A DNA stretch of 64,000 nt, from positions 7,118,989-7,182,988 of the forward strand of contig CAIIXF020000006.1 in the NCBI GenBank assembly GCA_903813345.2, in the 5' to 3' direction. Below are positions 3,120 to 56,622 of this stretch, one piece after another; the stretch's first letter is position 1; each line of letters starts with the position of its first letter. The translations under genes and the position numbers were made by a program. Source of the stretch: Owenia fusiformis (taxonomy: Eukaryota; Annelida; Polychaeta; Sabellida; Oweniidae). The notes under the pieces were generated by a model. It worked only from the letters and a program-made list of their open reading frames with translations. It searched no databases and was not told the origin of the DNA.

Positions 3120-3229
3120 TGTTCACTGAGCAAACCCTTAGATCTTTGCCGCCACAATGCTTTGATCCGTATTAACCAATCAGATTACAAAGATTGGGTC
3201 ACGTGATCAGAAACTAGCTACTAACCAAC
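3120..3229 (+). promoter_or_regulatory. TATA-less promoter region of the fusion gene (CCAAT + E-box)
   Basis: Immediately upstream of the first ATG lie a CCAAT box inside ACCAATCAG (3176-3180), a reversed ATTGG (3193-3197) and a palindromic CACGTG E-box in GTCACGTGATC (3200-3205). No TATA box is seen within 100 bp. The spacing suits an NF-Y/USF-type housekeeping promoter with transcription starting near 3210-3240. The factor assignments follow from motif identity only; the start site is inferred. Confidence 0.5.
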
Positions 3230-3289
3230 ATGGAGGTCGAAAAAAGTTCGAAAGAAATAAGGAATTATTTCGGGCGGTTTTGGGACTAA
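3230..3289 (+). CDS. Upstream ORF, 19 codons, abutting the main start codon
   Basis: ATG at 3230 in the context AACATGG opens a 19-codon frame (begins MEVEKSSKEI) that stops at TAA 3287-3289. Only one base separates it from the main ATG at 3291. If transcription begins upstream of 3230, scanning ribosomes would meet this ATG first and the main frame would depend on leaky scanning or reinitiation. If transcription starts downstream, it is irrelevant. The ATGGAGG context also resembles a YY1-type initiator, so the site could be promoter DNA instead of coding sequence. Confidence 0.35.
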   Translation: MEVEKSSKEIRNYFGRFWD

Positions 3290-3290
3290 A

Positions 3291-3315
3291 ATGCCACGTA
3301 AGAGTCGCAGTACAG
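3291..3315 (+). CDS. Fusion gene coding exon 1 (start codon, MPRKSRST)
   Basis: ATG at 3291 has A at -3 (ACTAAAATG). The exon encodes eight residues, MPRKSRST, plus the first base of codon 9, then the consensus donor G|GTAAGC. The overhanging G joins AT at 24787 to make GAT (Asp), so phase 1 matches exon 2 exactly. The basic stretch could be part of an NLS. The exon is short, so the assignment rests on phase match, donor quality and the promoter-like sequence just upstream; another 5' exon inside the 21-kb intron cannot be excluded. Confidence 0.7.
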
Positions 3316-24300: not shown

Positions 24301-27300
24301 TTTAAGTGTTTAACAAAAGTGTTTAATATAAAAACAAAATAAAGTCCTTCTTAATCTTGAAATGGTTTAGGAATCAAGAACCATGTAAACTCATTCAGAC
24401 TTATTATCATTCACTTTCAATTCATTGATGTACTAGATATTCATAAAAATAGATATTGATGTTTTTTACAAGAACAGTACACAGCCCTAAAAATGTTCAG
24501 AATTCCGTATCAGTCCTTTATGACATCATCATTTCTTATGTTGTCTCATGACATCATTCATGTACGATCCAGCTGGGGCATTCTTGTACTTTCCATTATT
24601 CACCTTATCATACTGCATTGATTTCAATATCAAACTTAAAGTTATCTCATTAAAATCATGGTACACCTTTTTCCAAAATAGGTGTACCATTCCAAAATAG
24701 CAGAGATTGTCCATTTTAAGGGGTATGTGCAGTGAGGATTAAAATATTAAAACTAATCAAAAATATTTTATTTTGTATGATTTCAGATAATAATCCATAT
24801 GATGCTTTGCAAAGTTCTTGGGATACTCCGTACTGCCGACAATTTTTACAACTTACAAGACACATTATCGACATACCAAAGTTTAGCATACAAGTAAGTC
24901 GGTACCATAGTCTAGTGTACAATATGAAATAATAACCCCTTCATCAGCTTAAAAAAAGCATATCAGTTCGAGACATTTCAAGTTGCACTGTAGAATATTG
25001 AGTGAAATATCTGTATTGTTTAGCATTATGTATAAAAACATGAGAGATGAGAAAAATACAAGAAATAAAATAAACATTAAGGCGGGAATTTTTGAATAAA
25101 CAATTTGTTTAAGAAAGAGGACGTAGGAGCAGAAATTGAGAAATTTCATTGCTTACAATCTTTTTGTAACTTAAGCAGTATTTTTGTGGATACATTGTCA
25201 ATGTCTGGATATTAAAAGGACCCCAGGAATTATCACTCATCCCACATGATGACATTCATTTTGTGTGTTTATATATCGTCATTATATACATGTAGTATAT
25301 TGTTATTTCATTGTCTATAGGGTGTCATAACAACCGCATATCTTTTTTACAGGAGTTTGAATTTGCGCTGAAAGAGTTTGACGATATCCTTATAAACTAT
25401 ATATTCACACAACTTCTACGATTTTTAGATGAGGTGAAATCACCTATACTGTAAGTAGTATAAAAGGTAATGTACAAATCAATGTTCATATAAATGTTGT
25501 CATATTGTTGTCTGTATTATAATATAACAGTTGATTAGAGGTAGATTGATAGTAACACACATCACATGCTTTTTTAATTCAATGAATGCTGAGTTGTACT
25601 TGGATTACAGGACCCGTTATACTGTGTGATGATTCTCTGATGATAACATTTAACAATGAGATCAGAGTAGCACATGATATGATTGGGGCCTATAACCCAT
25701 TTGATTCCAGCCATAAATATGTAATAGTATCAACATGCATGTCTCTTTTTCATCTATGTCTTGAACATAGCCACATTTACATACTAGGTGCATTGCATGT
25801 GTAGTAGAGGATATATTAGTATAGTCAATTAATTAGTTTAGATTTCCATATAATCATTTAGATTTATGCATGAGGTTTACTGAAATTTCATATTTTGAAT
25901 CAGAAAATGATGTTTATTAGATTATAAAATATCCTATCTTATAACTTGATAATTTTTTTTTAATTTTTTTATATTATTAATAGAATTTATGAAAATGAAA
26001 ATAAAAACAACAGAAAGATCATTATTTGGACATTTTGGAAGATTTGAAGACATAATGTTTATTTATTGTTTGAATATACATCTATAAAGTAAAAAATGAT
26101 TGTTTTATTTCCCAATGCTGTAACATATTTGTTTATCTTACAGGAAATGAGAGGCTGAGGACAGATTCTTGTCACGGGAGATACCAACTGTTTTTTTTCT
26201 ATTTATGCTAGTCGATATGTGAATTCTGCGTGGAATAAGGGATAATGTCCACAACGATCGGAAAGAACAATATTTCATTTGGTTCCCATCCTCTCATATA
26301 ATGGAATATTACAATGTATGAAAAATCAGCTCTCATCACTAATAAAATCATCATTGATGATCCTTCCTAATTCAGTTAACCAAATCCACAACTGTTGATA
26401 TTTTGACATCATCCCTCAAGAACAGGGAAAAGATAGAATATACATGGCCCACATAACACAGAGTCTTCCCAGAATTAGAGTTAGAGCAAGTGGATGCAGC
26501 ACCCATCTGAAATTTTAAAAACAGGCTTGCACCCACCTGAGAATCCACTTGCATCCACTTGAAAATGACAAAAATCTTGAAAATGGGGTTATTTTGACCA
26601 ATTTTGGTCTTCATTGTGAAAATGAAAATTTTGCACCCACTTGAGAAAATATCCTTAGCAGAACACAGTGACATATTATTTCTTTCATCATATTGAAACA
26701 TTTATGAGGCAAAGATATTTGTTCAATCATTTATACCAGTAAGGTGAACTATGTTTGGTGTCTGTTAAAAGAGGGCATTGATTTGTCACTTTTCATTCAC
26801 TTCATAACAATTCTTTTTATTATTGATTTTTAGAGGTCAGTATGAAGATGGACATGCACTGTTCTTGATAGTTGAAGCTAATATCAATTTTAATTGACTA
26901 TTATTTGTGGGATTTCAGGATCTGTTCCAGGTTTCAATCTACGTTCTTCCAAATTTGGTGTGTCTGAAATCAAAGCATTTATCCACCATCTCCCCATCTC
27001 CATTTGTCTCCTAGCAACCAGATGCTGCAAACAATTAAGAATTTGACCCAGATTATCAATTTGAAATTCTAGAGATTTGAGTAAACATTGAAAGAGTGTG
27101 TGATGTATGTTATAGATGACAATAAACATGTATGATTCTTTTTTCAGACTATCCAACTTTGACATTGTGCTGGGAGAGCTCCTAGCTAAAGAGAACCCGC
27201 GTAATAACCAGCTTCATCGTTGCAAGTTCAAACATCTTCGTGGCGATGAAAAGGTAATTAATGCAAGCTTAAAAATGTTTGAAATATTCACAGGTTGAAT

Positions 27301-36300: not shown

Positions 36301-39300
36301 TCAATTTTATTAAGAAAAGCTAAATTTAGAGCCACTGTTACAAAGCCTCTTGGGAGATTTCAGATGATTTGTCACTGTGAAACCCAGAGCTTAGCAATTA
36401 GTATATATGAAACTCTATTTTTTAAAAATGACATCAATGAGTGAAAAGGGCAATGATTTGTAAGGCGAGCTCTGTGTAGTAAAGTATAGTATATTAAATG
36501 TGGTTTTTGAGGTCTTATATTGTGATATATCATCACGTGGCATTATTCATCTCAACTTTATATGTGCCTATATTGAGCTATAGATTTCATTATGATGAAT
36601 TCTAAGGTATTGTACTGGCACTCCAAGTATCGTTTCTTTGTATGGAAGTATGGTATAATGGCAGTGTGTGCAGCATGACTTTTCTGCAGTATTTCAATTA
36701 ACGTTTTTTGTGAGACTTGCACTTTGAATGATTCTATATATAAAGGGGTTTAAATCCTAAGAGGTTCCTCCTTTACACCAATTTTCTCATTCATTTCAGG
36801 GGCTAGAGTAGAGAATCTAAACTCAAAAAATAAGCCGAAGATTTTGCTCTCTTGGAATCTAGTGAAAAATATTAACATTGTTTTCCCCCTATGTCATCCT
36901 GTTATTAGATCACATTCCTTCATAATTTCATGGAGAATATTAATGCCAAGGGACTGCTCTGCTAAGACCAGAGATGTTCACAAGTAAATGGAGGTGTTCA
37001 ACAGAAGGAGGGGCTCACAAGTGAAGAAATGTTAGTCTCGAATTAACTCAGGAAAACATTAAAGATGCATCAAGTTGTAGTCTATTTTATCAGGTTTAGA
37101 GTTGTTGTTTTTATCATGTGGCGAGAGAAATATTGAATTGACAGCTATATGAAAGGTGTTTGCAAAAGGTGCATGGAAGATGTTCTTCAATAACATTGAA
37201 AACTCCCTATTACAATACAGATTTTCTATAAAGCTGCTCTGTGCCTAAATATATCTCATCTGTTAGATACAACTTTATTTCTTTCCAATCTTTGAATGAA
37301 GTAGGCTATATTTAATATTTGCTTTTCTGGGGTTATTTCATTGTTTAGAGTCCGTAGTATTGGCTGTTTGATTTATTCATTTCCGATTTTACATTTTTCT
37401 CTTTATAGGATTCTAATTCATCAAGCCATCATGATCATGAGGTTTCTCATATTAAAAGTCTTATTAAAGTTAAACATGACTATTTGTAAAACACTTCTTT
37501 GAAATAAACTCACTCTCAAATACCAAGTCATAACTCTTTAAGTTAAACGCTTACATGAGTCAGATACCTCTTTAAGTTAAACGCTTTTATGAGTCAGATA
37601 CCTCTTTAAGTTAAACGCTTATATGAGTCAGATACCTCTTTAAGCTAAATGCTTACATGAGTCAGATACCTCTTTAAGTTAAACGCTTACATGAGTCAGA
37701 TACATCTTTAAGTTAAACGCTTACATGAGTCAGATACCTCTTTAAGTTAAACGCTTATATGAGTCAGATACATCTTTAAGTTAAACACCCCTGTAAGTAA
37801 AACACCACCTATTAGCCTACTATGAGTCCAACATTTCTATGTGTGAAGTGAGTCAAACCTCTCTTGAAGTCAAACACTTTTTTAAGCCAAATACCTCATT
37901 GAGTCAAACATTACTCTCCGAATTGAACTTCTCTAAATATGAAACACCTCAAGTTAAACACCTCTGTGTGTCAAATACCTTTTAAAGTTAATCACCTGTG
38001 TGAGTCAAACACCTCCATTAGTGAATCTGTGACTATTGTTTGGAGAACCCTCAAAAAGTGGATCCTGGATGTTTAGAGTTAATGTAAACTCCAAAATTGG
38101 ATCATTTGTCGTACTCAAAATGACTTCAAATGCATTCCGGATCCATTAAACGTGTAATATGCTGTGGGTCTAATAAATCGACTTAATGGTTTCATATTTA
38201 ACTACCGTATTATATCTGATATACTGAAATGAAGATTGACTTAAAAACATCATTTTTCATGTTGGCATTTTCATCAATTCCTCCAGATTTGAAAGCAAAA
38301 TAATCAGCAATATTTTATGTTTACTCGTTAGAGGTATGGTTAATTTGGGATCAAATCAGATGGCATTTGTCTTTCAAAAGCTGCTTGGATTTATTAGAAC
38401 ATTTTTTGCTAATTTTCCCAAACCTGATCGCCTATGATCATTGGTTGAAGTCTTTTATATTGACTATAATCACACTGAGTGAACTCGCTGAAAATATATT
38501 GAAAAAGGTTACAATCAGAAAATGATGTTTTATTGTAATTAAATAAAACTGGGAAATACCAAATTGTTAATTTGCAAGTTATTTTGAAAGGTAAGGGATT
38601 AAATTAGAATTTAAAAAAGTAAAATTGGGGAATATATAAGTTGTATAATTTATTTGCCTCTTTGATAAAAGAGAGTTACAATCATATACAGCACTGCAAA
38701 GAAGTAATTGTTAATACATGTATTGTTAATATGAAGTGCAAGAGAGAAAATGCATAAGTATGATGAGTGTTATATTATTAGTATTGTCCCTATTAATGCA
38801 TCATGTACACATATTCAGCTATAAGTAACAGTTTCTCATCATCATTATTAAATGCAATTCCTAAAATCACTTGATATGAAATTGTCATATACTGTATATT
38901 GTATGTTGATTTTAATGGTTGTATTATCTATGTACTTCCAGAGAGCCATCAATGTGGGCCAAGATGCCTTCAACAATACATACTGGTACTTTGATGGTAA
39001 GTGAATCCCTCTATTCAATATATGGTTTGTCATTCATATCTAACCATAATTTGGATGCTTTTTAGAATTTAGAGTATAGTAGATATCATGATATTTGTAT
39101 TTTAATATAAAAGGCGAGACAGGGGATCGTCTTATGGATTAGTTTAGGTATGATGTCATTTTGTTCGCATATAATATTATAGATAGAATTTGATTAGAAA
39201 GATTTATTTGAGCTTCCTTAATTTAAGATTGCCCTCGATGGATCGCTTTTAGATTTTTGTGCATGTTTTGATTTTTAATATCAAATGTCAGGTTCAATGT

Positions 39301-42300: not shown

Positions 42301-45300
42301 ACTTTTCTCAATGAAGGTGACCAGAGTAGACTTGGTTTCAAATTGATTGTGTGAAATATTGCTATAGAAGTCTTGTTCCAGACCCACCTTAATCCTTCAT
42401 TGCATTTTTCAAATTCAGATGATAATTTATATTTGAAATGTGTTTGTGTGATGTTTATAGAATATTAATTTACAAAAATAAATGCTGCACTGAGTATTGG
42501 TGTGAGAAGTCACTCCACCCTACTGGGAGTCGTATGCTTTGATATTAGAATTAGTATAGTCTCATACTTGCATTGTTTTCAGACAGAATATGTCATCTGT
42601 CATTGTTGATATTAGGTTAAGATGATATTTCATTTTTCATGTACTTATTATATTACTTAGTTCTATCTTATGTGTTAGATTATTGTATTTTTTGTCAAGC
42701 ACACAGTTGTGAAAGTGACTTATAAATAAATGAAGGCTTATATTTCAAGTCAGAATTTTTGGGTCTTTTTCAGAGATTCTGTTTTAATATATTGAAGTTC
42801 AACCTTAAGTGCTTTTATATTGTTGTTTCTTATAAGGGTCACCTTGGAATTATAGGTCATACTTATTATTTACTTCATCATTAATAATTCATTCACTTTA
42901 AGCCCTAATGTTTATTTTCTGATTACAGATTTGAGACTATATAAAGAAGCGGGTTCCAAAAAATCAGGTAAAAAGGACTTTGAGACTATTTGCATCACGC
43001 TTCCAGATTGGCAAACATTCGTGAAACAATTCCGAAAAACCTCGAACGTGAACGAAAAACTCTTGCATGATTACTTGACAACTGAATTATTTCCATTGGT
43101 CTCTGCCAAGTTAGAGGTGAGTCTACTGGACCAGTGATATGGCAAAATGTCTAAAGAAAATGAAGAAGTAACCCACTGATATATTATTGGGATTGTGCGT
43201 TAAAATAAACATACATACACCTCTATCTGCATCTAGTACACTGTTGCCCCTCCATGTAATGCAGGTGCAAGGCTGCATAACACAAATATCTGCATGAGGA
43301 CTCGATGGAAATATTTGTCTTCATACTCAAATTAAAAGAGGAGAGACAAGATTGCCAAGGGATTTAATGTTGATTTGAATGGATTAAATGAAAAAACTAC
43401 ATCTTGTTGACATATTCACAGTCTTATGTAACTTTATCACTCAGCTTCAGGCGGACATCCTCTTTGAAAAACTTTTATTACATATCCTTTTGTCTGAAGG
43501 TTTACATATATAATGTTGATTTAAAATGGATTGATTTGTACTATGTAATGTTAACAAAGTCACTAATTTTACTTTATATTTCTACTTCAGGCGGAGTTTC
43601 TCTACCCAGAGACTGAAAATCTGGAAATCAGTCGAGACACCATTTTGAAACGTGAAGCGGTGAATAATCCGGAAATGTTAAATGATTCCTCTAAAATTAT
43701 GGCAAGTAGCGATGTAGAAGTTTCCAACGAAGTGAAGAAAGAAGTTAAAAGTGAACCAAATGTAAATGTGAAAAACGAGAGCTCGAGCGTGGAATCTCAA
43801 GATACAATAATTAACGGTAAGTTTTGATTTGAGTAATGTCCCCCAATATCAATTTAGAATGCAAATTAGAGAAAATGAGTGAAATAAGGAGAAAATGAAT
43901 GAAGTTGAGGTAGCTAGGTAGTAAAGAAAATTAGCTGAAATCATGAAGAAAATTGTGTAAGTAAATGACAGTGACATTTTTAGATCAACAAGTGTCCATA
44001 TGTGTGACAAGTCAGTTATTGGGAACACTGTAAAATTTATAACTCTGGATTATTTTGTCATTGTGATATCATGTAAAAAGTATGTTGTGCCTAGATTGTT
44101 CTACTATAAACATTACAATCAATTAGTTCAGTTGAGTGGTCTCAAATTCTTGTTCGCAATATCTAGGCAATTTACCCTTGCTTGGGTGTTTTGATTGTTG
44201 TATTTTAAATTGGAAATCAACTAGAAAACAGTGAACAGAAACAGAAATCAGTTTGCTTGTATATTATGTAATTCTCTAATTTTTTAAGATATGTCAAAGA
44301 ATTATGAAGTTAATTCAAATTCTAGAGAAAAATGCGCAAAAATGGTTAGCAAAAGGAATTATGTTAAGCATGGTAGGGTAATATACAGGCGGTATGAATA
44401 TGATCTTAATGTCATCTGCTATGTGTATCACATGCATCAGATATATTTCAGTCATTAGTGGTTTGCTGGATAGATGTTTCACTTTGGATTTTACTATATG
44501 ATGATGGGTAGTATATACTTTCAGGTGTATTATTGAATGAGTACTATTTTCTGAGATTATAATTGTGTTTTCAATCTTCCAAAATTATATTCTGAGTATC
44601 AAACTCTCATTTTTGAAAAATTAATTCTTTCAGTGCTTGCAGCATCGACAGTTATTATGATGCAATTTGGGGTATCGTCCTTCCGCATAAGATCCCTCAT
44701 ATATTGATTATGCTTTCATAATAGATTGTAATAGATCTGTTCTGCACATGTTTGTATATTTACACCCTGGTCTCACCAATTTGAACATTACCCTCTCACA
44801 AAGACAAATGATTCTACAATTAATCATGCCATTCTCTGATTGGCTTGATGAGTTCAGAGGTTTATTTGATAAAACTCAGAGGTTCAGAGATTTATTTGAG
44901 AATATAAAGAGTATGAATCTATTTATTTCATTATGTTATTCCAAATGGTATATAATTATTAATGCTTTGGTTACTTGTTTTAGGTAATACGCCAAAAACT
45001 GAGACTGAAGAAGCAAAGCCTGAAATTAAATCAGAAGTAAAACAAGGTAAAATAATAAAATACATATTATTTCTAATAAAATAAACATTATTTCAAGATA
45101 TTATTTTATGGAATGAATAAAATGTATATAATATTATACAGGAAGTTGAACTTCACTCAGTTTATGGTTACATGTATGTCCCTGTATCTTGAACACAATT
45201 CATCCAGACTATTGAGTTTATTCTGCTGTGCTAATCAACCATTAATTGTTAAGCTTTGAGTAAGCATGATGTTACGATGCTCTATTATACTTGTTCTGTC

Positions 45301-48300
45301 AATATTAACAAGATAATTTGTTTTTATTGTCTCGTATTTGTTATTCATTTGTTTGCTTATTCACTAAATTCTGAATATACTTCCAGAATCTAACCCGGGA
45401 GATATATATAGTGCGGAGAATATAGACAGTACCGAAACCCCAAACGGACTGCATCCTCAGCCACCGTTGCTACAGCAACCAGCCGCTGCCCAGCCACAGA
45501 CGAGCACATCGGACTCTCATTACATGCAACAGCATAGCCAAATATTTGTGTATTCAACTGGGCTTGCAAATAAGGCATCTGAATCAGTGTTAAACGGGAC
45601 ACATAAATCTATAATTGAATACCACTGTGAACAACCAGGCACTAAGAAGTTTCTACAGGTAATTATCATAAAGCATACTTTATAAAGAATATGTTGCAAC
45701 TCGCAATTGTCATGTTTTGAAACGTCAAATAGAGTGGAAAAACTGGAATTACCAAGGCGTATAATTAATAACAGGATTGTTCATGCTCTATATTTTATAG
45801 AAATGCAAGACAAGTAGACTCTTCATTTAAAAGATAATGAATCCAAAATCTATGTGGATAATTATTATTATTATTTTATGAATTGTTCCACATCCCTCAG
45901 TTCCATGTTCTCTTTATTATTTACATTTCTGAGTTGTTGTAAACAGGAAATAGGAAAAATGATTTTTAGAATAGATCTTGAAAGAAAATTGGTGATAACC
46001 CCCCTATCACACCAAACTCGTTCTTACCCGTTCTTGCCAGTCCTATGAAAACGTCGTAAAACGGGCTCAATCTGGCTGTGGTCGGGAAATATGTCTGACA
46101 TAATTAGCTTCTTCGTTCTTAAACAGTCTTCAATACGTCCTTCTCGTTCGCAGTTCGTTCAGGTCGCACCACGTCGGTGTGCAACGTAGTAGAACGCGTC
46201 CCTTAGTCTAGAAGGTCAACATGACCTGATTACAGAACGTTATGGTCGCCATCGAATTTTGAATCGATTCAAAATTCTAAAATCACATTCCCGTCTGAGA
46301 ACGATCATAAAGTTCGTAAGTAGACCTTAGAAAGTTGCAGCTACGTTCATTCCGTTCGCACACAGTTTTGAAGAACGCAGTGGCAACTTGTTTGGTGTGA
46401 TAGCTATATTTTTGCTAACTCGTTCATAAGCAGTGTTAAATATGTTCTTAATCAGTTTAAACCCGTTTGCAATTAGTTCTACCTCGTTCTCAACACGTCC
46501 TCAGACAGTTCAACTCGTTGTTAAAATGTCCCTAGTAGGATTGAAGTACGACGGTTCCGTTCGTAGTACGTCCAGCTCGTCGTTAGTACGTTGTCACTCG
46601 TTCTAATTGTAGAACGTGACGACCATGAGAACATTTTGAGCATTGTCTAAGTTCTAGAGGACCTACCCGTTCGAGTACGTTCGATGAAGTTTGTTAATAG
46701 ATCCCAAACGGTTCTTAGTAGGTCCAGTCCGTTCGTACACAGTTGAAGCCCGTTTTTGAGAACGTAGTGAGAACTAGTTTGGTGTGATAGTAGGGTTAGG
46801 GAGGTCAGAATGTGTCTTTGAGCCTGACTAAACATTCAATGAGATATATTCTTGTACTCTATAATAACAGGGAGGATGTATCGGAGCTCTCTATGAGGCC
46901 TTTTGACTCATAGTTTGGGGGTCTTGTACTTTTTTATCATCACTTATTAATAATAGAAAAATGATGTGTTAAAAGAAATGTGTTTTGCCTATATCAGGGG
47001 TTTGCCTATATCAGGGGTTTCACTAGAATTTCTCGCAACAGGCTAAATAAATGAAAACAGGCAAAATTAATGGAAATCATAATTTTAACATTGAAAAGTT
47101 GAACAACAGGCAATTTTGTGAAAACAACCGGTGAAAATCGCCTGTTGCCTGCTGCAAATGAAACTAATATCAAATATTTTGGCCCTTATACAAATCTTTA
47201 TATATTCCCGGAAATGATACAGGAAATTGATAGCTCATTCATTCAATTTTGCAGGATAAAGAGGACTAAGAGGATACCACGACCCCTGTTGTTTAAACAA
47301 TTGCTTTATGTAGATGAAAAATAATATCACTATAAATATCAATATATCTGGTAATAAATATGAAATCTATATTTTTAACTAGCCTAAACCAGAATACCAT
47401 TAACAGGTTATAATAGGCATTGCAATAGACATTGACATTGCAAGTAGATTGTTGATTATTCTTGTAAAATTCACACTGGTTATCATAAAGAGTTATTGAA
47501 TCTTTATTTCAGTATCTCACATGGGCTGACCAAATTCACTTTTATTTTACAGACAGGATAATTTTCCTCGAGGGGAAATAAAGCATTTTAGTTTCTCATT
47601 TTCTCCAATTTTCAGTCCGTCAGGGTTCGAAAAACATTTCACACTTTCGACAAACTTTTAGTGTCAGCTCTAAGGAATTGACTCCAATATTCTCAAAGCT
47701 TTTAATCTTTAATACATATAACATAATGTTCCTAATTATCATATGAGCACTAGATTATATGAAGCACTCTATTACTGTCAATATACACTCCCTGTCAAAA
47801 ATATGTTAACCAAGACCCCCAACTAAAAAATGTTGTTTAAGAGTCTAATAAAAGTCTGTTAAAATTGGTTGTTTGATGAATTTGTTAGATATCAAATTGC
47901 TGGAAATATACAGGCTTAATAAGTGGTCTGATTTGGGGAGTTGGTGTAGCTTAACTTTTTTAGGGGGGTGTACTCGTCAAAATCAAGATGTATATCTTCA
48001 TTGTATTTTCACTGTTTAGCTGACCTCCAGTCTTAACAGAATTGTGCTCTCTCTGACATTTAATTTTGTTGTTTCGTCAAATTGAACAGAAGTACCAATT
48101 TAATGATTGTGTTGTGTTCTTGTGTAACGCATGGATATGTTTGTTCTACATTGTTCTTAACATAATACTCTACAAGTGAAGGTTGAATAAATAATAAACA
48201 AATTAAAACAGAGGATATAAAGTAACCAATGCAATTCTCTCATTTTGAATCACCCTTGATAAATTTGCGCAAGATTTTGTCCCAATAGAAATTCTGGAGA

Positions 48301-51300: not shown

Positions 51301-54300
51301 TGGACAAAACGGAAATATATAAAATTATGTGATAACTTTGTCCATGACTATGCTAGTGTTTGCGTCATAACTACATTGATATTAGTGATGTCAGTATATT
51401 TCAATATTTTTCCATAGTTACTGTGATATTCATATGACATTGTGTCAAAATAAAAAATGTTATTTTCTAAGCAGTGAAAGAATATTATATTTTTGGCAAT
51501 CTATAACATAACCTAAGAATATGACTTTTACATTATGAATCACAGTGAACAGATTTTCCCGACTTGACTCAAAATGAGGCTGACAGTAGTGATACCCGAT
51601 CAGATGTATGGAGAGTTTGATTTGAATTATTTTAACTATGGAATAAGAAGAACAATTTGGCTCATAGATATTGATATCTGTACCCTCTTGCTAAGTTTGC
51701 TCGTACAAATATCAATATCCATTCGCAGATAAAAATTGTATCACTCACAAATTATAGAATATCCTCTATTTATTTCCAGAAACATCCACTGAAAGTGTCA
51801 CAGTTTAATCGGCCAGCAGGTCTACCTAATTACAATATGGCTAATGTTCGTGGGCCAACGACAAATAGGACATCACAAGGCATGATGGGAAGCAATGGCA
51901 ATGGAAATCAAAGTGTCGCTCAGTGGGTCGAGCAACAAAACGCGAACCTACAACAAACTGGAATGAACAATATGACAGGAAACAATATGGCCACAAATCA
52001 GGGAATGGGAAATGTTGGTGGATTTGACCCGAGTAATCCTATGGGTGAACAGACTATGGGCCAAAATCCAATTGGAAATATGCCTTCGAACATGCCTCCC
52101 AATTATGGAGGAATGGGAAATATGCCTCCAAACAGTATGTCCAATATACCTCCAAATAGTATGGGCAATATGCCGCCAAACTCTATGGGCAATATGCCAC
52201 CAAATATGCCACCGAACTCTATGGGCAATGTGCCACCAAGTACAATGGGCAATATGCCACCAAATACAATGGGAAATATGCTGCCAAGTACAATGGGTAA
52301 TATGCCCCAGAGCTCTAATTCAATGGGCAATGGAGCCCCAAATGCTCCACCAAGTACTATGGGCAATATGCCTCCACAGAGTATGGGGAATTTACCACCA
52401 CAAAGTATGGGCAATATGCCTCCGACAAGTGCTCCCGGGACTATGCCTCCAGGCCCCAATCCCAGAATGCCCCCAAATGGCGCAGATCCAAATATGGCCA
52501 TGCCTGGCAGGTGGAACAATGATCAAATGATGAGTGCGGCCGCAAATCTTATGGATATGCAAGAAGGCTCTGGAGATATTCAGACATCACGGATACCAAA
52601 TGAAAACCTTACACCAGAGCAGTTACAACGGCGGGAGGAATCTCTGGCAAACCTTCGTAAAATCCAACAAATGCTCTTCCCGGAAAAAGAGGGTGGCAGC
52701 GGGCCTCCTGGGAGTATGCCGAGCCAGAATGGACCTCCAGGACCAGGGGGTATGCCACCCCAGGGGCCTAACATGATGCAGGGACCAGGGGGAGGGGGTG
52801 GCCCTCCTGATGGAATGTTTAATATGATGAACCCCCAGCAACAAATGATGAGCCCGCATGGACCCTCACCTAACATGATGATGGGCCAACAGCCAATGGG
52901 TCCAGGGGGTCCCCCCATGAGTCAAGGAGGTCCGCCTATGACCCAAGGTGGTCCATCAATGGGACCCGGAGGCCCTCCTATGGGTCCAGGTGGTCCCCCT
53001 ATGGGTCCAGGTGGTCCAATGGGTCCAGGTCCCCCACACAATATGATGTCCCCCCAACCAAATATGATGATGACTCCCTATGGCATTGACCCCCAGAACA
53101 TGACCCCTGCCCAGAGAGACTGGATGAAGCTTCAGCAGGAGTACTACACTGATAAACAAAGGGTCCGGCAGCAGCAGATGATGCAAATGCAACATATGAA
53201 TCCCGGGGGAGATCCCTTTTGTCCCCCAGGTGGACCTAACCCCATGCAAGGCCCCCCTCCTCCATATTTCAACAACATGGGGGGTCGTAGGGCTAGCATG
53301 ACTGGCACACCTACCTCGCCTAATACAAATGGACCTATGCCCTCTCCACATATATCATCAGGACATCCCTCCCCTAGTCCTGGAGGGCCACAATTTGACT
53401 TCCCTGGCCCTAGGCATCCAGGTTTCCCTAGCCCTAATCACCCGGTCATGTCACCAGGGATGCCAGGAGGTATGGACCCTAGCATGATGGGCCCTGGGGG
53501 TATGCCCATGGGGCCAGGAGGTATGCCCATGGGGCCAGGAATGGGACCTGGCATGAACATGGGAATGGGACCCGGAATGCCACACCAACCAACAAGAGGA
53601 AGGGGAAAAAATTCCCGTGCAAAAACACCAGCAATTGTACAACGAGCTGGCAACCCTGAACCTCTTACACCAGAAATAATAAACAATTTAACAGGTCCCA
53701 ATAAACCACCCCCTAGTTACGCTCAATCAACCAAACGGAAGCGAGAAAATGGCATTGATGAAGCCAATAAAAAACTGCAACCCACTCCCTCACCACAACA
53801 AATGAACTATATGAATGTATATGAGGGTCAGGAATTGACTATTACAAAACAGATGAACTCTGCCTTTCAGGACTCCCCGCAGGGGGCACCAACTGGAACT
53901 ACCCGCACCACATCATTGAATTCCCCAATGCCGACCTCTGTGGGGTCACCCATGACAGCCCCAGGATCAAATAAAGCAACATCCATAAAATCACCCCTTC
54001 CCCCTCCAGCTCCATCCCCTGCTCAACAAAAACCAGCTCCCTCCCCATCACCTATCCCCACCCCATCTCCTGCCCAACAGATGCCACCACCATCACCCAT
54101 CCAGAAGCCAGCGACCCCATCTACCCCTGGCCCCCAGGTCCCAAAGTCTCCATTACCTGTTTCTAGCACTACTACCACAGGTAAGGATTTGAAATAATTT
54201 TGTTAAAGAATGGAAATATAAAACATTATTTTAGAGCAATGTAATCAGCAGAGTGAATTAAACAGGAGTTTCTTTGAGCACTCTAGAATGTAAAGAACTA

Positions 54301-56622
54301 ATTTAATTTTCCAAGAAATAAAACTATTTCAACAAGAATGATATGAAATTAAGATCAGTGTTCAAGAGATTAGGACTCGTGTGACGTAAAATCATGCAGA
54401 TGTGACAAAATCATGATCAGTCTGACATGAAATCATGACAAGTGTGACATTAAATAGTGACCAGCATGACATAAAATTGTGTCAAGTGACATAAAATTAT
54501 GATCAGTGTGACATGAAATCATGACCAGTAAAATGTGAAATCATAACTCGATTGTGATAATATGGTAAAATGTTTGTGTTCTTTGTTTCCAGGTACTACT
54601 GTAGTTACAACTTCAACAATCACAACATCAGCCCCAAACTCTAGCGTAACCACGACAACTAGCTCAATAGGGGTCAAATCACCCCTACCCCAGCAAGCCA
54701 AACAACCAACCCATGGGACTCACCCTGCTCTAAGCACGGCACCTGGTTCTGGAGCACCTCCCTCACCAGGCCAACGTCTGTCTCATTTTGACCCCCCAGG
54801 GAGTAAAAACAATGCAAATAAGGCAAACTTGACATCAAACATTACCTCAGCGAGCTTGGCCAATTTGGCAAAAGGCGTAGAACATTTATCCAATCAGATG
54901 CAACAGAGCATGCTTCAAGGGGGACCATTCCATAATATACAGATTCAGGGTCAGATCTCGGAGAATGAACAAATGCCCCCAAATAGTATCCCTCCTCATT
55001 CGAGTATCCCCCCAAGTGGGCCCCCAAGTGTTAATAATACCTACGTGAACGCTACAATGTCTATACAGCAGTTGAATATACAAAGTGTGAATAACCCAGG
55101 AGGAATGAGTAATCCTGCTATGCAGGTCCAGCAAATGAACAATGACATAGCGGGTGGTACCGGACCTGGAGGTGGTATGAATGAGCCTCTTCCTGGTCCT
55201 GCCACTGCCCAGGCAAGCCAGATGATGGCTGGAGGCCCCCTCCCTACTAACACTAGTATGTCAATGTCTCAGGCCCAAATGATGAACATGGGGGGAAGCA
55301 TACCAGGCATGGACACTCATGGTATGCAAAGATTTCCAAGTGGCCCCCAAAGTGGGCCTCCTCAGAGTCCATTCGGACAGTATCCAAATCCCCAGGAGGG
55401 CCCCCAATTTAATCCACAACAGCAGTATTCTCAGTTCCCAGGTGATCCAAATATGCCTGGTATGCCTGGCTCTAAACAGTTCCCAGGGGGGCCACATCCA
55501 GGTGGACCACACCCAGGAGGCCCTCATCCAGCAGGACCACATCCAGGAGGGCCTCATCCAGGTGGGCCACAGTATGGTCCTGGGGGGCAACCAGGGGGCC
55601 CAACTCCTACATCTCAACCAAGTCCATTTCCAGTGCCGGCTACCCCCGGACAGAGGTTCGGATCCCCTGAGGTACCACCTCAAAGTGTAACACCAGATCT
55701 AATGTCCATGGGTCCAGTTGGAAGTCCGCCATTTAGAGGTCCCAACCCTGGGGGCCCAGGTGGGGCACCCCCAGGTAAAGGCCGCAGCTCAGGAGTACAT
55801 GTTCAAGCCAAGGCACCAAACACAATAGGATACATGCCTAACCAAGGGGGACCTCCTATGCCTCAGCAAGTCTCAGACCCTGTCAATGTTCGACCAGAAA
55901 TGGAAATGATGAGTAGATATGCAACACCAATGAAGGATCTAGAATCAAAATTGCCAACTAAAAAACTCCAGTATTTCCCAAATGCAAATGATTCTCAAAA
56001 CCATCATGGGGAAATACCTGGTATGAGAATGGCACAGATGCAAGCCATGACACGTCGTGAAATGATGGGCCCTGGTGGACCAATGCCCAGATTTCCAGGG
56101 GCTCCAGGTCCCCCTGGGGAGATGGCAGGTATGATGCCCCGTCACCCAATGAACAGTATGGAGATGATGCAACAGCAGTCAATGATGATGGCGGGCAATC
56201 GTGGCCCGATGTCTTCTATGCAGTATAGTGGGCCACCCGGACCCCCTGGGGGACCTATGATGCAAGGCAGTCAACATATACAAATACAGGGTCAGAATAT
56301 AACAATGCAAGGTCAAGGACCTATGCCCCCTTTAAATCATCCTATGAACCCATCTCAGCTTGCCCAAATGCGTAGTATGGATCCCCAAATGCGTCAAATG
56401 GGCCCAGATTCTCAAATGCGCGGAGGTGGTATGCCAGGTGTTCCTGATCCACGTATGATGAACTCTGGTGGCCCACCTGTGGGAGGCTCTGCTGGCAGTT
56501 ATGGAAATGATCCTGGATTTAATGCCACGTTTCAACAACAACAAATGTATGCTCAGAATACAGCTCGCCAAATGGGACCACAGGGAATGAGTGGTGGCGG
56601 TAATCCAAACTATATGATGTAA
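3291..56622 (+). CDS. CECR2-like DDT/WHIM region fused to BCL9/Legless, 12 coding exons, 1888 aa
   Basis: Joining exons 3291-3315, 24787-24893, 25353-25450, 27148-27253, 27765-27860, 38942-38996, 42929-43116, 43591-43816, 44984-45046, 45387-45658, 51780-54180 and 54593-56622 gives one frame of 5667 nt with every junction in phase and GT..AG borders. Residues about 18-225 resemble CECR2's N-terminus: an SSWDTP start, helical DDT-like segments, a YWYF-type motif at 158-161 followed by RLYKE, then a helical block. Residues 226-322 are an acidic linker with five SUMO-consensus sites. HD1 is at about 373-402, HD2 at 689-717, HD3 at 853-885, basic NLS-like clusters near 1018 and 1064, and an LQYFP motif near 1670. 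In known families BCL9 bridges Pygopus and beta-catenin, and CECR2 binds ISWI ATPases; a nuclear bridge between the two is inference. Alternative: two transcripts that overlap or are alternatively spliced. Confidence 0.85.
3791..3821. repeat. Short perfect hairpin
   Basis: TTTCTATTTCAA and TTGAAATAGAAA form a 12-bp perfect stem around a 7-nt loop. It lies inside intron 1. It is too short for a typical miRNA precursor. Similar wording (TTTCTATGTTTCAAATAAAA) occurs in the longer hairpin at 13776-13852, so the two may be relics of one repeat. Confidence 0.6.
4056..4226 (-). repeat. Dispersed repeat ending in CAGGCCCGTAGCCAGAGGG (minus strand)
   Basis: Read on the minus strand it starts CAGGCCCGTAGCCAGAGGG and has G-runs at both ends around an AT-rich centre. 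Start motifs of the CAGGCCCGTAGCCAG kind recur in many invertebrate genomes as ends of non-autonomous DNA transposons; that is from memory. Overlapping open frames in both directions are a by-product of the G/C runs. Confidence 0.5.
4590..4790 (+). repeat. Diverged copy of the core of the 17878-18658 MITE
   Basis: GATCTATCATTAAATTAA, TTTTAGATCAATAA, GGGAAAACCA and TTCTAAAATATTGTT occur in the same order here and at 18310-18450. The terminal TAGAGGTGTAACTC repeats were not found around this copy, so it is an old or truncated family member. Confidence 0.65.
4967..5135. repeat. Iterated palindromes CAGCGCTGT / CAGTACTG
   Basis: The 9-bp palindrome CAGCGCTGT occurs at 4967, 5049 and 5101, interspersed with CAGTACTG and ACAGTGCTG variants. 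CTGTTTTTACAGCGCTGT is repeated about 52 bp apart. The stretch could form several alternative stem-loops. No function can be assigned. Confidence 0.6.
7516..7721 (+). mobile_element. 206-bp inverted-repeat element with TCATG duplication
   Basis: The ends are CAGTGATCTCC and GGAGATCACTG, perfect inverted copies. TCATG flanks both sides (7511-7515 and 7722-7726), consistent with a 5-bp target duplication. The body has GGTGGGTGCAA repeats. A related, reverse-oriented copy lies at about 26460-26667. Non-autonomous. Confidence 0.7.
8285..8655 (+). repeat. Promoter-like dispersed repeat, copy 1
   Basis: A ~370-bp module with a CAGAGT...ACTCTG hairpin at its left edge, an ATTGG, a full CRE palindrome TGACGTCA (near 8503), TATAAAG (near 8525), ATTGGCGCGG and a terminal AAGAGTGAAGACGGAGCTCT...CGAATGCAAAGG followed by GTATGT. 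Copies: 8752-9022, 29162-30727 (interrupted), 28105-28162 (3' end only). It looks like a promoter plus first exon with a donor site, or the control end of a retroelement; which one is not decided. Confidence 0.7.
8752..9022 (+). repeat. Promoter-like dispersed repeat, copy 2 (diverged)
   Basis: It starts inside the family (lacking the left hairpin) at CCTGTGATAGTCCAGGTCAT, keeps ACCAATCAGTGAGC, ATGACGTAAG in place of the full CRE, the AAGAGTGAAG hairpin and CGAATGCAAAGG, followed by GTTGTG. Direct orientation with copy 1, about 100 bp downstream, so a local tandem duplication or double insertion. Confidence 0.65.
9023..16275 (+). other. Intron 1, middle part
   Basis: About 7.2 kb of AT-rich intron. 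No exon with splice and phase support was found. It contains the long hairpin at 13776-13852, an OTX-like cluster of GATAATC/GATTA motifs (14310-14350), and old repeat-like wording (AAAGATGTTT / AAAGGTGTTC, about 12780-13010). Frames of up to 106 codons show no recognisable domain. Confidence 0.55.
13776..13852. ncRNA. 33-bp near-perfect hairpin (miRNA-like or MITE relic)
   Basis: Arms 13776-13808 and 13820-13852 are inverted copies with an 11-nt loop. The arms differ only at the centre of the stem (ACATAAGAAC against ACATAGAAAC), so about 32 of 33 positions pair. Size and loop suit a microRNA precursor, but near-perfect pairing is more typical of a small MITE or siRNA source. It lies in an intron in sense orientation. 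Evidence is structural only. Confidence 0.4.
16276..17773. mobile_element. 1.5-kb DNA transposon relic with ATCACACTRCCCTACC ends
   Basis: The left end is ATCACACTGCCCTACC (16276-16291) and the right end GGTAGGGTAGTGTGAT (17758-17773), inverted with one mismatch. A second nested inverted pair is GTACAGGGAGC (16581) against GCTCCCTGTAC (17494). Just inside the left end is the NRF1-type palindrome GCGCATGCGC. No transposase frame remains. A clear target duplication was not established. Confidence 0.7.
17878..18658. mobile_element. hAT-type MITE with 8-bp target duplication
   Basis: The ends TAGAGGTGTAACTC and GAGTTACACCTCTA are perfect inverted copies, and GTGTCATG flanks the element on both sides (17870-17877 and 18659-18666). 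An 8-bp duplication and a TAGAGRTG-like terminus are diagnostic of the hAT superfamily. Internally it has many ACTCGAGT / AACTCGCGAGTT motifs near both ends. No transposase frame. The exact target duplication suggests a fairly recent insertion. Confidence 0.9.
21368..21392. repeat. GTGTC-CTTCGGGACG-GTGACAC hairpin, possible SINE relic
   Basis: The sequence TGTCGTGTCCTTCGGGACGG followed by TGACAC contains nested inverted pairs. GTGTCCTTCGGGACG-like wording is familiar from 3' parts of some invertebrate SINEs, but no tRNA-like head or A/B boxes were found upstream. Low confidence. Confidence 0.25.
23688..24005. repeat. ACAGTAAAAC-ended dispersed repeat, decayed
   Basis: The left end ACAGTAAAATTTGTATAAG and right end ACAGGTTTTACTG are inverted. 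Internal AGAACACATTT / AACACCTCTC wording matches the element at 449-612. It may be two abutting elements, because a second CCTGTCTTATCGAACACC start appears near 23840. Confidence 0.45.
24787..24893 (+). CDS. Fusion gene coding exon 2 (DDT-like region, first part)
   Basis: The acceptor is TTTCAG (24781-24786) and the donor CAA|GTAAGT. It encodes residues 9-44. The segment has SSWDTP followed by a helix and an IPKFSI stretch, which parallels the SWWEVP...LPDFEI spacing of vertebrate CECR2. The exon starts in phase 1 and ends in phase 0. The conserved Trp and Pro-x-Phe mark the start of the DDT-like fold. Confidence 0.85.
24894..25352 (+). other. Intron 2
   Basis: A 459-bp intron, phase 0, with donor GTAAGT and acceptor TTTTTTACAG. 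AT-rich; nothing else recognised. The minus-strand 66-codon frame over it has no recognisable content. Confidence 0.8.
25353..25450 (+). CDS. Fusion gene coding exon 3 (DDT-like helices)
   Basis: The acceptor TTTTTTACAG ends at 25352 and the donor CT|GTAAGT starts at 25451. It encodes EFEFALKEFDD and an amphipathic helix ILINYIFTQLLRFLDEV, and ends in phase 2 with CT, which is completed by A of exon 4. The E-x-E-x-AL...D pattern corresponds to CECR2's EELEAALHRDD segment. Too short to be recognised except in context. Confidence 0.85.
25451..27147 (+). other. Intron 3
   Basis: A 1697-bp intron, phase 2. It contains the reverse copy of the 7516-7721 repeat at about 26460-26667. An exon-like acceptor TATCTTACAG near 26142 is followed by no usable frame. 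Confidence 0.75.
26460..26667 (-). repeat. Reverse copy of the 7516-7721 inverted-repeat element
   Basis: On the minus strand it shares CAAGTGGGTGCAAAATTTTC, a TTGGTCAAAAT core and GGTGGGTGCAAG blocks with 7545-7680. The ends are eroded (CAGAGTCTTCCCAG against ACACAGTG). Diverged and older than the copy in intron 1. Confidence 0.6.
27148..27253 (+). CDS. Fusion gene coding exon 4 (DDT-like region, middle)
   Basis: The acceptor TTTTTTCAG ends at 27147 and the donor AAG|GTAATT starts at 27254. It enters in phase 2 (CT+A = Leu) and ends in phase 0. It encodes LSNFDIVLGELLAKENP, then a basic HRCKFKHLRGDEK, the counterpart of CECR2's FHSYLEDIINYRWE...FQDLPLRTR stretch that leads into the next helix. 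Confidence 0.85.
27254..27764 (+). other. Intron 4, with a solo element end
   Basis: A 511-bp phase 0 intron. At 27434-27470 it carries GGTGGTGACATTTTGCATGT followed by TAATGCCTTG, nearly identical to the right end and flank of the large element at 49247-51208, so the shared piece extends beyond the inverted terminus. Confidence 0.7.
27765..27860 (+). CDS. Fusion gene coding exon 5 (DDT-like region, end)
   Basis: The acceptor TTTCAG ends at 27764 and the donor CTT|GTAAGT starts at 27861; both ends are phase 0 (32 codons). VQILRWLVDYVFD matches the position and pattern of CECR2's VEILHRLCDYRLD, the most conserved helix of the region. The open frame continues past the donor to 28088, but that part is intronic and overlaps a dispersed-repeat fragment at 28105. 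Confidence 0.88.
28105..28162 (+). repeat. 3' fragment of the promoter-like repeat
   Basis: AAGAGTGAATATGAAGCTCT and the following CTTTTAAGAAG...AACGAATGCAAAGG match the right end of 8285-8655. Only about 58 bp remain. Confidence 0.6.
29162..30727 (+). repeat. Promoter-like dispersed repeat, copy 3, split by an insertion
   Basis: The left part 29162-29470 and the right part about 30658-30727 together match 8285-8655, including the CAGAGT hairpin, ACCAATCAGCGAG, GATTGGCGCGGTGAG and CGAATGCAAAGG. Between them lies the 1.2-kb element at about 29471-30657. Copy 1 gives the empty site: GGTTTATTTTAGTTTGAAAG. Confidence 0.85.
29471..30657. mobile_element. 1.2-kb element inserted in the repeat, with (GTCC)n and internal repeats
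   Basis: CCCATCGAAC (29476-29485) and GTTCGATGGG (30617-30626) are inverted. Next come GAAGTTCGGAGGGATATAGG, a (GTCC)n tract (29515-29600), and about four tandem copies of a ~133-bp unit (29890-30440) with AAAATGGCCGCCATTTT palindromes and TGGAGCGATTTTGTTCATAT. About 30 bp lie outside the right inverted motif. No transposase. The long frames across (GTCC)n encode Ser/Val/Arg/Pro repeats and are artefacts. Confidence 0.8.
30829..30860. repeat. Tandem duplication of a ~20-bp unit
   Basis: GCACTTAGACTGCAGGTTTT is present twice head to tail. It lies between the nested repeat and the 20-bp satellite. Small; no function inferred. Confidence 0.7.
31085..33036. repeat. 20-bp satellite, about 97 copies
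   Basis: The unit is AGCTTGTAGAGGAGAATAAT. Period 20 is kept almost throughout, with a few 1- to 3-bp slips (for example 31339, 31511, 32058). Recurrent variants are CTTTTAG, CTCGTAG, TTGTCGAG, AACAATAGATT and AATGATAG. Variant units recur in blocks, which indicates higher-order duplication. On the minus strand it stays open as a Ser/Tyr/Leu repeat (32471-32704), a result of the period and composition and not a gene. Confidence 0.95.
37535..37786. repeat. 34-bp satellite, about 7.5 copies
   Basis: The unit is about TCTTTAAGTTAAACGCTTAC + ATGAGTCAGATACC. Copies differ at TTACATG / TTTTATG / TTATATG and TACC / TACA. The array grades into degenerate AAGTCAAACACCTCT-like units to about 38020. 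TGAGTCA in each unit matches the AP-1 site. Confidence 0.9.
38942..38996 (+). CDS. Fusion gene coding exon 6 (YWYF motif)
   Basis: A 55-bp exon with acceptor CTTCCAG and donor GATG|GTAAGT. It encodes RAINVGQDAFNNTYWYFD and ends in phase 1; the G joins AT of exon 7. The G-x-D...YWYF pattern is the hallmark found at the same place in CECR2 (GALYWYF) and RSF1 (GLMYWY). It lies between an 11-kb and a 3.9-kb intron and would be missed by ORF-length methods. Confidence 0.88.
40341..40361. repeat. (AG)n microsatellite
   Basis: About ten AG dinucleotides in an uninterrupted run inside intron 6. Confidence 0.9.
42110..42258. repeat. ACAGTTAAGCCTGT-ended short inverted-repeat element
   Basis: The left end ACAGTTAAGCCTGT is an imperfect inverted copy of the right end ACAGGTTTCACTGT. 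Size (about 150 bp) and end motif match the family seen at 449-612. Non-coding. Confidence 0.6.
42929..43116 (+). CDS. Fusion gene coding exon 7 (WHIM-like block)
   Basis: The acceptor GATTACAG ends at 42928 and the donor GAG|GTGAGT starts at 43117. It begins LRLYKEAG, aligning with CECR2's TRMYKE directly after YWYF, then has a short basic linker and a helical block (LPDWQTFVKQFRKTSNVNEK, LLHDYLTTELFPLV) that matches the CECR2 EEEWRQVTESFRERTSLRER / LYKLLSEDFLPEI spacing. It ends in phase 0 at residue 225, the end of detectable CECR2 resemblance. Confidence 0.88.
43117..43590 (+). other. Intron 7
   Basis: A 474-bp phase 0 intron between the last CECR2-like exon and the linker exon. AT-rich, no repeats recognised. 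Together with introns 8 and 9 it separates the two protein modules, so it is where a gene boundary would have to lie if the fusion were false. Confidence 0.8.
43591..43816 (+). CDS. Fusion gene coding exon 8 (acidic linker with SUMO-consensus sites)
   Basis: The acceptor TCTACTTCAG ends at 43590 and the donor G|GTAAGT starts at 43817. It encodes residues 226-300 and the first base of codon 301. The early part (AEFLYPETENLEISRD) is probably still tail of the CECR2-like unit. The later part is low complexity and contains VKKE (273-276), VKSE (277-280) and VKNE (285-288), all fitting the hydrophobic-K-x-E SUMO consensus. No bromodomain is present. Confidence 0.82.
43817..44983 (+). other. Intron 8
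   Basis: A 1167-bp phase 1 intron. Near 44825-44905 a CTCTGATTGGCTTGATGAGT + TCAGAGG stretch resembles a worn fragment of the promoter-like repeat. No poly(A) signal with a convincing 3' end, and no promoter-like CpG or CCAAT cluster, was noticed. Confidence 0.7.
44984..45046 (+). CDS. Fusion gene coding exon 9 (short linker exon)
   Basis: A 63-bp, phase 1-1 exon (acceptor TTTTAG, donor CAAG|GTAAAA). It encodes NTPKTETEEAKPEIKSEVKQ. It carries IKSE (315-318) and VKQE (319-322), the last Glu being completed across the junction with exon 10. As it is a multiple of three it could be skipped without breaking the frame, which makes it a candidate alternative exon. This exon and exon 8 are the physical bridge between the CECR2-like and BCL9 halves. 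Confidence 0.78.
45047..45386 (+). other. Intron 9
   Basis: A 340-bp phase 1 intron, AT-rich, nothing else recognised. The exon 10 acceptor is TATACTTCCAG. Confidence 0.8.
45387..45658 (+). CDS. Fusion gene coding exon 10 (BCL9 HD1, Pygopus-binding)
   Basis: The acceptor ACTTCCAG ends at 45386 and the donor CAG|GTAATT starts at 45659. It encodes residues 322-412. The stretch IFVYSTGLANKASESVLNG, then IIEYH, is the HD1 signature of BCL9/BCL9L/Legless (human BCL9 has VYVFSTEMANKAAEAVLKG). HD1 binds the PHD finger of Pygopus. It is preceded by a Gln/Pro-rich spacer. The exon ends in phase 0 and continues directly into KHPLKVSQF of exon 11. Confidence 0.93.
46004..46790. mobile_element. Dimeric MITE with CTATCACACCAAACT ends
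   Basis: The outer ends CTATCACACCAAACTCGTTC and GAACTAGTTTGGTGTGATAG are near-perfect inverted copies. A third copy of the right end, ACTTGTTTGGTGTGATAG, ends at 46401 and is followed at once by CTATATTTTTGCTAACTCGT, a worn left end. So two ~390-bp elements stand head to tail (46004-46401, 46402-46790). The inside is packed with short GTTC/GAAC/ACG words (CGTTC, GAACG), unlike surrounding AT-rich DNA. Confidence 0.8.
49247..51208. mobile_element. 2-kb inverted-repeat element with ~134-bp tandem units rich in AGGTCA
   Basis: The left end ATGTCACCACC...GTGGTGACAT is itself a hairpin and is inverted relative to the right end GGTGGTGACAT. A CGGCGGTTGGCGTC duplication follows the left end. Then about 13 units of roughly 125-140 bp, each with TTCTCAGAAATTCAAATCTG, GATTTGACATTTGACCTTCA, ATGACCTTCTCAAGGTCAAA and AAAATCATCTACATG. 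A solo right end lies at 27434. No transposase. Each unit carries several AGGTCA half-sites. Confidence 0.85.
51780..54180 (+). CDS. Fusion gene coding exon 11 (BCL9 HD2 and HD3)
   Basis: The acceptor TATTTCCAG ends at 51779 and the donor ACAG|GTAAGG starts at 54181. It encodes residues 413-1212 and the first base of 1213. An N/M/P-rich region with an octapeptide array (about MPPNSMGN, 52075-52440) precedes HD2: LTPEQLQRREESLANLRKIQ and then QMLFPE (689-717), the beta-catenin-binding helix, with the Arg-Glu and the hydrophobic Leu/Ile/Leu face kept. A GPGGPPM array (52905-53030) leads to HD3 (MTPAQRDWMKLQQEYYTDKQ, 853 on). Basic clusters RGRGKNSRAK and KRKREN look like nuclear signals. The last third is Ser/Pro-rich. 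Confidence 0.95.
54181..54592 (+). other. Intron 11, with a ~22-bp minisatellite
   Basis: A 412-bp phase 1 intron. At about 54379-54548 it holds around eight degenerate copies of GTGACATGAAATCATGACCA-like units. The donor is GTAAGG and the acceptor TTTGTTTCCAG. Its shortness between two very long exons is typical of BCL9-type 3' gene structure in this locus. Confidence 0.8.
54593..56622 (+). CDS. Fusion gene coding exon 12 (BCL9 C-terminal tail)
   Basis: The acceptor TTTGTTTCCAG ends at 54592; G+GT makes Gly 1213. The frame runs to TAA 56620-56622. Low-complexity Met/Pro/Gly/Gln sequence, with a PHPGG repeat (55490-55570) and a Thr-rich start. KLQYFPN (near residue 1670) after DLESKLPTK matches the conserved BCL9 segment DLSRIIPSEKPSQTLQYFP. 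The final GGGNPNYMM resembles the human BCL9 end GPGNPGNMMF. A KAPNTIGYMPN patch looks conserved but I cannot name its role. The tail is the expected transactivation region. Confidence 0.93.

Follow-up and report, generated by a model that had tools for sequence, protein, structure and literature searches.

A single 12-exon gene of about 53 kb, encoding a protein of 1888 residues in which a CECR2-like region is fused to BCL9, is the explanation that taken as a whole probably holds for the window, the 64,000-nucleotide stretch of the Owenia fusiformis genome analysed here. That the window carries one fusion gene is the firmer part of this explanation and is very probable. The predicted protein consists of a CECR2-like DDT/WHIM-type module (approximately residues 10–260), a charged linker (approximately residues 260–360) and then BCL9. 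Exons 1–8 and 10–12 would lie on one mRNA, to judge from the genomic sequence. The gene is probably an old CECR2-like::BCL9 fusion, a new architecture of known families.

Structure of the gene

The window covers C6:7118989-7182988 of a 498-Mb assembly and contains no N. Twelve plus-strand exons, spanning positions 3291–56622, were assembled from splice-site scores and open frames. They sum to 5667 nt, or 1889 codons with the stop. The junction phases along the chain are 1,0,2,0,0,1,0,1,1,0,1, and every border is of the GT..AG type. A preliminary description of this DNA had claimed 12 GT..AG exons, 11 in-phase junctions and 1889 codons; the chain rebuilt from the raw window gives the same totals. 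For exons 2–4, the choice among well-scoring candidates was guided by the phases and total of that description. Agreement for these exons is therefore not fully independent. The three chosen candidates resemble CECR2, and their lengths fill the missing 311 nt exactly. The exons and their main evidence are as follows, where own CECR2 denotes the separate CECR2 gene of this genome.

3291..3315, plus strand: exon 1, MPRKSRST, phase-1 donor; CpG o/e 0.93 at 3001-3500
24787..24893, plus strand: exon 2, start of the DDT-like helices; 3' border matching own CECR2 in residue and phase
25353..25450, plus strand: exon 3, DDT-like helices; 3' border aligned with that of own CECR2, phase 2
27148..27253, plus strand: exon 4; splice chain and CECR2 alignment
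27765..27860, plus strand: exon 5, helix ahead of the WHIM-like motif; splice chain and CECR2 alignment
38942..38996, plus strand: exon 6, WHIM-like GxD....YWYF motif; splice chain and comparison with own CECR2
42929..43116, plus strand: exon 7, CECR2-type W/F/L helical segment; 3' border at most 2 residues from that of own CECR2, phase equal
43591..43816, plus strand: exon 8, last CECR2-like residues, then the beginning of the charged linker with repeated hydrophobic-K-x-E motifs; splice chain and codon test
44984..45046, plus strand: exon 9, 63-nt linker exon; splice chain and codon test
45387..45658, plus strand: exon 10, end of the linker and BCL9 HD1 (predicted Pygopus-binding); PDB 3zpv, 2vpe
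51780..54180, plus strand: exon 11, BCL9 HD2 (predicted beta-catenin-binding) and HD3-like helix; PF11502 at 52605-52709
54593..56622, plus strand: exon 12, BCL9 C-terminus and stop codon; splice chain

Exon 1 is only 25 nt long and lies 21 kb upstream of the others. It is indicated by its phase, its donor and a local CpG peak, which is one among several in the window. An in-frame ATG 10 bases 5' of exon 2, found by eye, is an alternative start. Exon 9 measures 63 nt, so the frame would also be kept if exon 8 were spliced directly to exon 10. By eye, a short upstream open reading frame (3230-3289, 19 codons plus stop) ends one base ahead of the exon 1 ATG at 3291.

The BCL9 part

HD1 and HD2, in the C-terminal part, both match solved BCL9 chains. 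The best PDB match of HD1 in exon 10 is 3zpv, annotated 'protein BCL9 homolog' (E 3.5e-7), the fly protein; human BCL9 chains come next, and 2vpe is also matched (E 0.0011). HD2 in exon 11 matches 3sl9 (E 2.5e-6) and 2gl7 (E 3.7e-6) and scores 58.8 bits against Pfam PF11502 (cutoff 25). The presence in frame of a complete BCL9/Legless, as described earlier, is thus borne out by sequence matches for HD1 and HD2. Searched for over the whole genome, HD1 and HD2 each gave one significant match, the one in the window: the second HD1 match stands at E 6.4, and the PF11502 match is the sole one in the genome. Judged by these matches, the C-terminal part is BCL9, and no other BCL9/Legless was found in this genome.

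HD3 is described in PMC5352222 as a helix with an invariant W and a later F/Y doublet. An HD3-like helix in exon 11 has the W and an EYY doublet, identified by eye and by motif only; a PDB search with it gave no BCL9 match. As in BCL9, BCL9L and Legless, HD1 and HD2 follow one another in order, and the HD3-like helix, judged by motif only, would come next. The gene described here differs from these in adding approximately 260 N-terminal CECR2-like residues, and a query with the human BCL9 N-terminus found no vertebrate-type N-terminus in the window (best E 4.7).

The CECR2-like module

Alignment statistics indicate that the N-terminal approximately 260 residues are homologous to CECR2. The module aligns to own CECR2 with a score of 162, which lies 20.4 SD above shuffled sequences (mean 35.9, SD 6.2) and is reached by none of 500 shuffles. 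Other members of the general DDT/WHIM class leave it near the shuffled level. Against RSF1 it stands at 2.7 SD, a score reached by 10 of 500 shuffles, and against the BPTF-like DDT of C9 at -0.1 SD. Own CECR2 and RSF1 are themselves clearly related, as the control comparison of the two gives 19.3 SD; the module still sides with CECR2. In tblastn, its best exon match reaches 28.5 bits with own CECR2 vs 20.8 with the genome's own KIAA2026/BRD10. Among the proteins compared, which were CECR2, RSF1, the BPTF-like DDT of C9 and KIAA2026, the closest to the module is CECR2.

The likeness is old or has been eroded by fast evolution. The module is identical to own CECR2 at 63 of 205 aligned residues (31%), whereas own CECR2 and human CECR2 share 94 of 155 (61%). 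The module is therefore best read from these alignments as a diverged CECR2 paralogue and not a recent copy. At E<=10, Pfam DDT (PF02791) gives no match to the module, whereas own CECR2 is accepted at 22.5 bits (cutoff 22). A PDB search with the module yielded no matches. The Pfam family KIAA2026_hel (PF23450) scores 20 bits, below its cutoff of 27.8. KIAA2026/BRD10 carries a related helical module, but the genome has its own copy at C6:4.67 Mb, which is less like the module than own CECR2 is, and identification of the module as KIAA2026/BRD10 was rejected for this reason. That locus (L049, G000:C6:4667500-4672500) holds a KIAA2026/BRD10-like gene with a bromodomain followed by PF23450, on the chromosome that also carries CECR2 and the fusion gene.

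A separate CECR2 with a bromodomain lies at C6:33.80-33.84 Mb, some 26.6 Mb from the fusion gene on the same chromosome. Its DDT exon is at 33798.5 kb and is followed by WHIM, W/F/L and coiled-coil exons and by the bromodomain at 33834.7-33835.7 kb. Its DDT/WHIM region and bromodomain are thus in place; two expected exons, the first and the one after the W/F/L exon, were not located at this locus. The bromodomain at C6:33835182 is 53% identical to human CECR2 over 43 residues and scores higher against CECR2 than against BPTF, BAZ1A or BAZ2B. Another bromodomain (L012), aligned to CECR2 over more residues, gives a higher bit score, and a further one (L009) an equal score; BAZ queries fit both better. 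Since the genome holds this separate CECR2, the module is a diverged paralogue and not CECR2. Descent of the module from the genome's CECR2 by a rearrangement that moved or broke it was considered and rejected, since the separate gene has its DDT/WHIM, coiled-coil and bromodomain exons. The earlier designation of the region as CECR2-like DDT/WHIM accordingly stands as to CECR2 homology, with the refinement that a paralogue at 31% identity, and not CECR2 itself, is involved.

Unlike CECR2, a subunit of the CERF complex, the gene described here has BCL9 and no bromodomain after the module. Bromodomain searches gave 33 genome matches at E<=0.001, and the window with 1.8 Mb to either side is free of them. 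A genome search with the module returned the window exons and one match at E 2 and missed own CECR2, so further distant paralogues may exist. The E 2 candidate, at C5:18016339, was rejected: the single frame translated there contained no convincing reading frame. Pfam DDT gave three matches over the genome at E<=1 and likewise missed own CECR2, because an intron splits its DDT.

Shared introns and origin

Three intron positions are common to the module and own CECR2. The exon 2/3 border falls at the same aligned residue and phase in both (IPKFSIQ|EFEFAL vs LPDFDIE|ELEDAL), and so does the exon 3/4 border; the exon 7/8 border has the same phase and is at most 2 residues off. Under a simple placement model (4.4% per intron), the probability that at least 3 of 7 introns are shared is 0.0027. 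The 1/2 intron keeps its phase relative to own CECR2 and lies approximately 6 residues away, the 5/6 intron is shifted by 7 residues, and own CECR2 lacks any equivalent of introns 4/5 and 6/7. The three shared positions favour copying at the DNA level over a retrocopy. A CECR2 gene probably contributed its 5' half, introns included, which was copied in this manner upstream of BCL9 and diverged later.

The joint between module and BCL9

Coding character at the joint was assessed with a codon score trained on exons 2–7 of the window and own CECR2 (654 codons), with exons 8–10 held out. The test is limited, as in exons 11 and 12, which differ in composition, the true frame is not preferred by the score. 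Read in the joining frame, exon 9 and the beginning of exon 10 look like coding sequence. Per codon, exon 9 scores 0.27 and the opening 137 nt of exon 10 score 0.25; both values exceed the 99th percentile for open intron pieces, which is 0.20 for exon 9 and 0.12 for the exon 10 segment. The 3' part of exon 8 is modestly coding-like, at 0.08 between the 95th (0.04) and 99th (0.10) percentiles. In exon 9, as in the opening 137 nt of exon 10, the joining frame is the sole frame without stops; by chance, intron pieces as long as exon 9 are open in 22% of cases and 137-nt pieces in 4.7%. From exon 9 through the first 45 whole codons of exon 10 the sequence is coding-like, and coding would therefore have to enter exon 10 from upstream. 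The linker from exon 8 to exon 10 (43645-45388) contains, by eye, six hydrophobic-K-x-E motifs (LKRE, VKKE, VKSE, VKNE, IKSE and VKQE); in VKQE, the final residue comes from the codon that spans the exon 9/10 junction. This pattern is the SUMO-acceptor consensus, and the motifs in the linker are SUMO-like candidates only.

The same stretch can be read as the boundary between two adjacent genes. One would encode a short DDT/WHIM protein of CECR2 type that ends in or after exon 8 or 9, the other an ordinary BCL9 under its own promoter, and the in-frame joint would be a coincidence. Phases agree by chance in about 1 of 3 cases, and in vertebrates CECR2 and BCL9 are separate genes. Read-through past exon 8 or exon 9 soon reaches a stop, four AATAAA signals stand at 45054-45116 just 3' of exon 9, and the splice sites at this point are weak, the exon 9 donor (6.0) and the exon 10 acceptor (4.7) each being the weakest of 11. 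A BCL9-only protein could possibly start at the in-frame ATGs 43675 and 43699 in exon 8 or at 44962, directly before exon 9. Such a division is, however, hard to square with the coding-like exon 9 and exon 10 start. In the frame of exon 10 the only ATG ahead of HD1 is at 45524, a few codons before it, and the human BCL9 N-terminus recovers nothing convincing in the window. Between 40.0 and 45.3 kb, 12 candidates lead from an ATG to a phase-1 donor, no excess over seven other 5.3-kb stretches (7, 11, 10, 10, 4, 13 and 0). The best donor among them (10.7) serves two candidates that sit in exon 8, and the next scores 7.7. CpG o/e is low across 43751–45500 (0.10-0.60 in 500-base windows; median over the whole window 0.35). 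Two separate genes are thus decidedly improbable, and the single fusion gene is preferred.

Alternative promoters would allow the fusion gene to yield both the fusion protein and a BCL9-only protein with its start inside exon 8 or directly ahead of exon 9. This arrangement is compatible with the preferred explanation, and the likelihoods of the two overlap. It draws on the same three ATGs and on a CpG o/e of 0.90 over 43501-44000; that interval, however, has only 11 CpG and spans exon 8, which may have raised the value. CpG is in any case a weak guide, because peaks also occur elsewhere in the window (approximately 8, 16-18, 29-30, 46 and 60 kb) and in the region of own CECR2, around its first located exon and at other places. 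A second promoter of this kind is rather unlikely.

Predicted function of the fusion protein

As an adaptor, BCL9 links beta-catenin to Pygopus and the Wnt enhanceosome. By a weaker inference than that of a single mRNA, HD1 of the fusion protein would bind Pygopus on H3K4-methylated chromatin, HD2 would bind beta-catenin and the N-terminal module would bind an ISWI-type ATPase. The covalent linkage would then hold a nucleosome remodeller at Wnt-responsive enhancers. Deletion of HD1 is reported in PMC10287724 to abolish assembly of BCL9, Pygo2, LDB1 and SSBP2, and the DDT domain of CECR2 is described in PMC7948406 as needed for binding to SNF2L/SMARCA1. A genome search located one SLIDE-domain locus of ISWI type, at C2:4.90 Mb (E 4.4e-13). 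Given the fusion, ISWI recruitment is almost, but not quite, an even prospect.

Alternatively, the gene may be fused and its CECR2-like part may have lost ISWI binding, serving instead in dimerization, nuclear localization or other chromatin contacts. At 31% identity to own CECR2 the module may have lost its ISWI contacts; own CECR2 is itself well conserved relative to the human protein. The missing Pfam DDT score and this divergence are real arguments against ISWI binding by the module. On the other side, the module is kept end to end over the 205 aligned residues, the GxD....YWYF core included, which suggests selection on the fold. Loss of ISWI binding is a credible reading, if not the favoured one. 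With regard to the fusion as proposed, it may tentatively be suggested that in a spiralian lineage the sole BCL9 became covalently joined to a CECR2-like subunit that recruits ISWI, and that every beta-catenin/Pygopus complex would thereby come with an ISWI remodeller; this broadest form of the proposal is the less probable outcome.

In the literature searched, no description of a CECR2-like::BCL9 architecture was found, in keeping with the earlier statement that no such protein was known. Among the listed papers on BCL9 together with CECR2, none concerned a fusion, judged by titles and abstract openings, and no paper combined BCL9 with the term 'DDT domain'. The BAF remodeller is placed at the Wnt enhanceosome in PMC5352222, with Osa/ARID1 as the subunit that presumably mediates the contact. 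A naturally occurring BCL9::CECR2-type fusion would point to ISWI as another enhanceosome partner and would make this link testable by the swap or deletion of one exon block. If it does recruit ISWI, the covalent fusion would hard-wire what other animals would need separate proteins for, if they do it at all. Owenia fusiformis is described as slow evolving (PMC9539403), and the gene would be an instance, within such a lineage, of altered domain composition in a core Wnt component.

Repeats and other observations

Outside the window, a locus at approximately 1.19 Mb (L048, positions 970-3663, G000:C5) has an open frame of 897 residues that matches the forkhead domain at 71.8 bits, less than most other forkhead matches reach. 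It is possibly a divergent orphan Fox gene, as far as this match indicates; no RING or RAWUL was seen in it by eye. The genome gives 38 forkhead matches across nine of at least 12 large contigs, with two tandem clusters. In PMC9539403, Fox genes of this species are reported on 9 of 12 chromosomes, with tandem foxQ2 duplications on two; the chromosome numbering used there does not correspond to that of the contigs. A search for mitochondrial COX1 gave no matches. Two pattern scans of IMG/VR returned 9 and 7 stretches, none of which was confirmed.

Several repeats lie within the introns. A CpG-rich patch at 45.75-47.0 kb was considered as a BCL9 promoter and rejected as a high-copy element. At approximately 46000-46790, in intron 10, a young inverted-repeat element was noted by eye, with the ends CTATCACACCAAACT and AGTTTGGTGTGATAG. 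From 2194 candidates at first look, at least 44 genome matches to it are listed; 40 of these, counting the element itself, reach 98-100% identity. Also in intron 10, positions 49609-51133 hold approximately 11 tandem copies of a 136-base unit. A further array at 31079-33035 repeats a 20-base unit (GGAGAATAATAGCTTGTAGA) in tandem approximately 98 times and gives rise to long spurious open reading frames on the minus strand.
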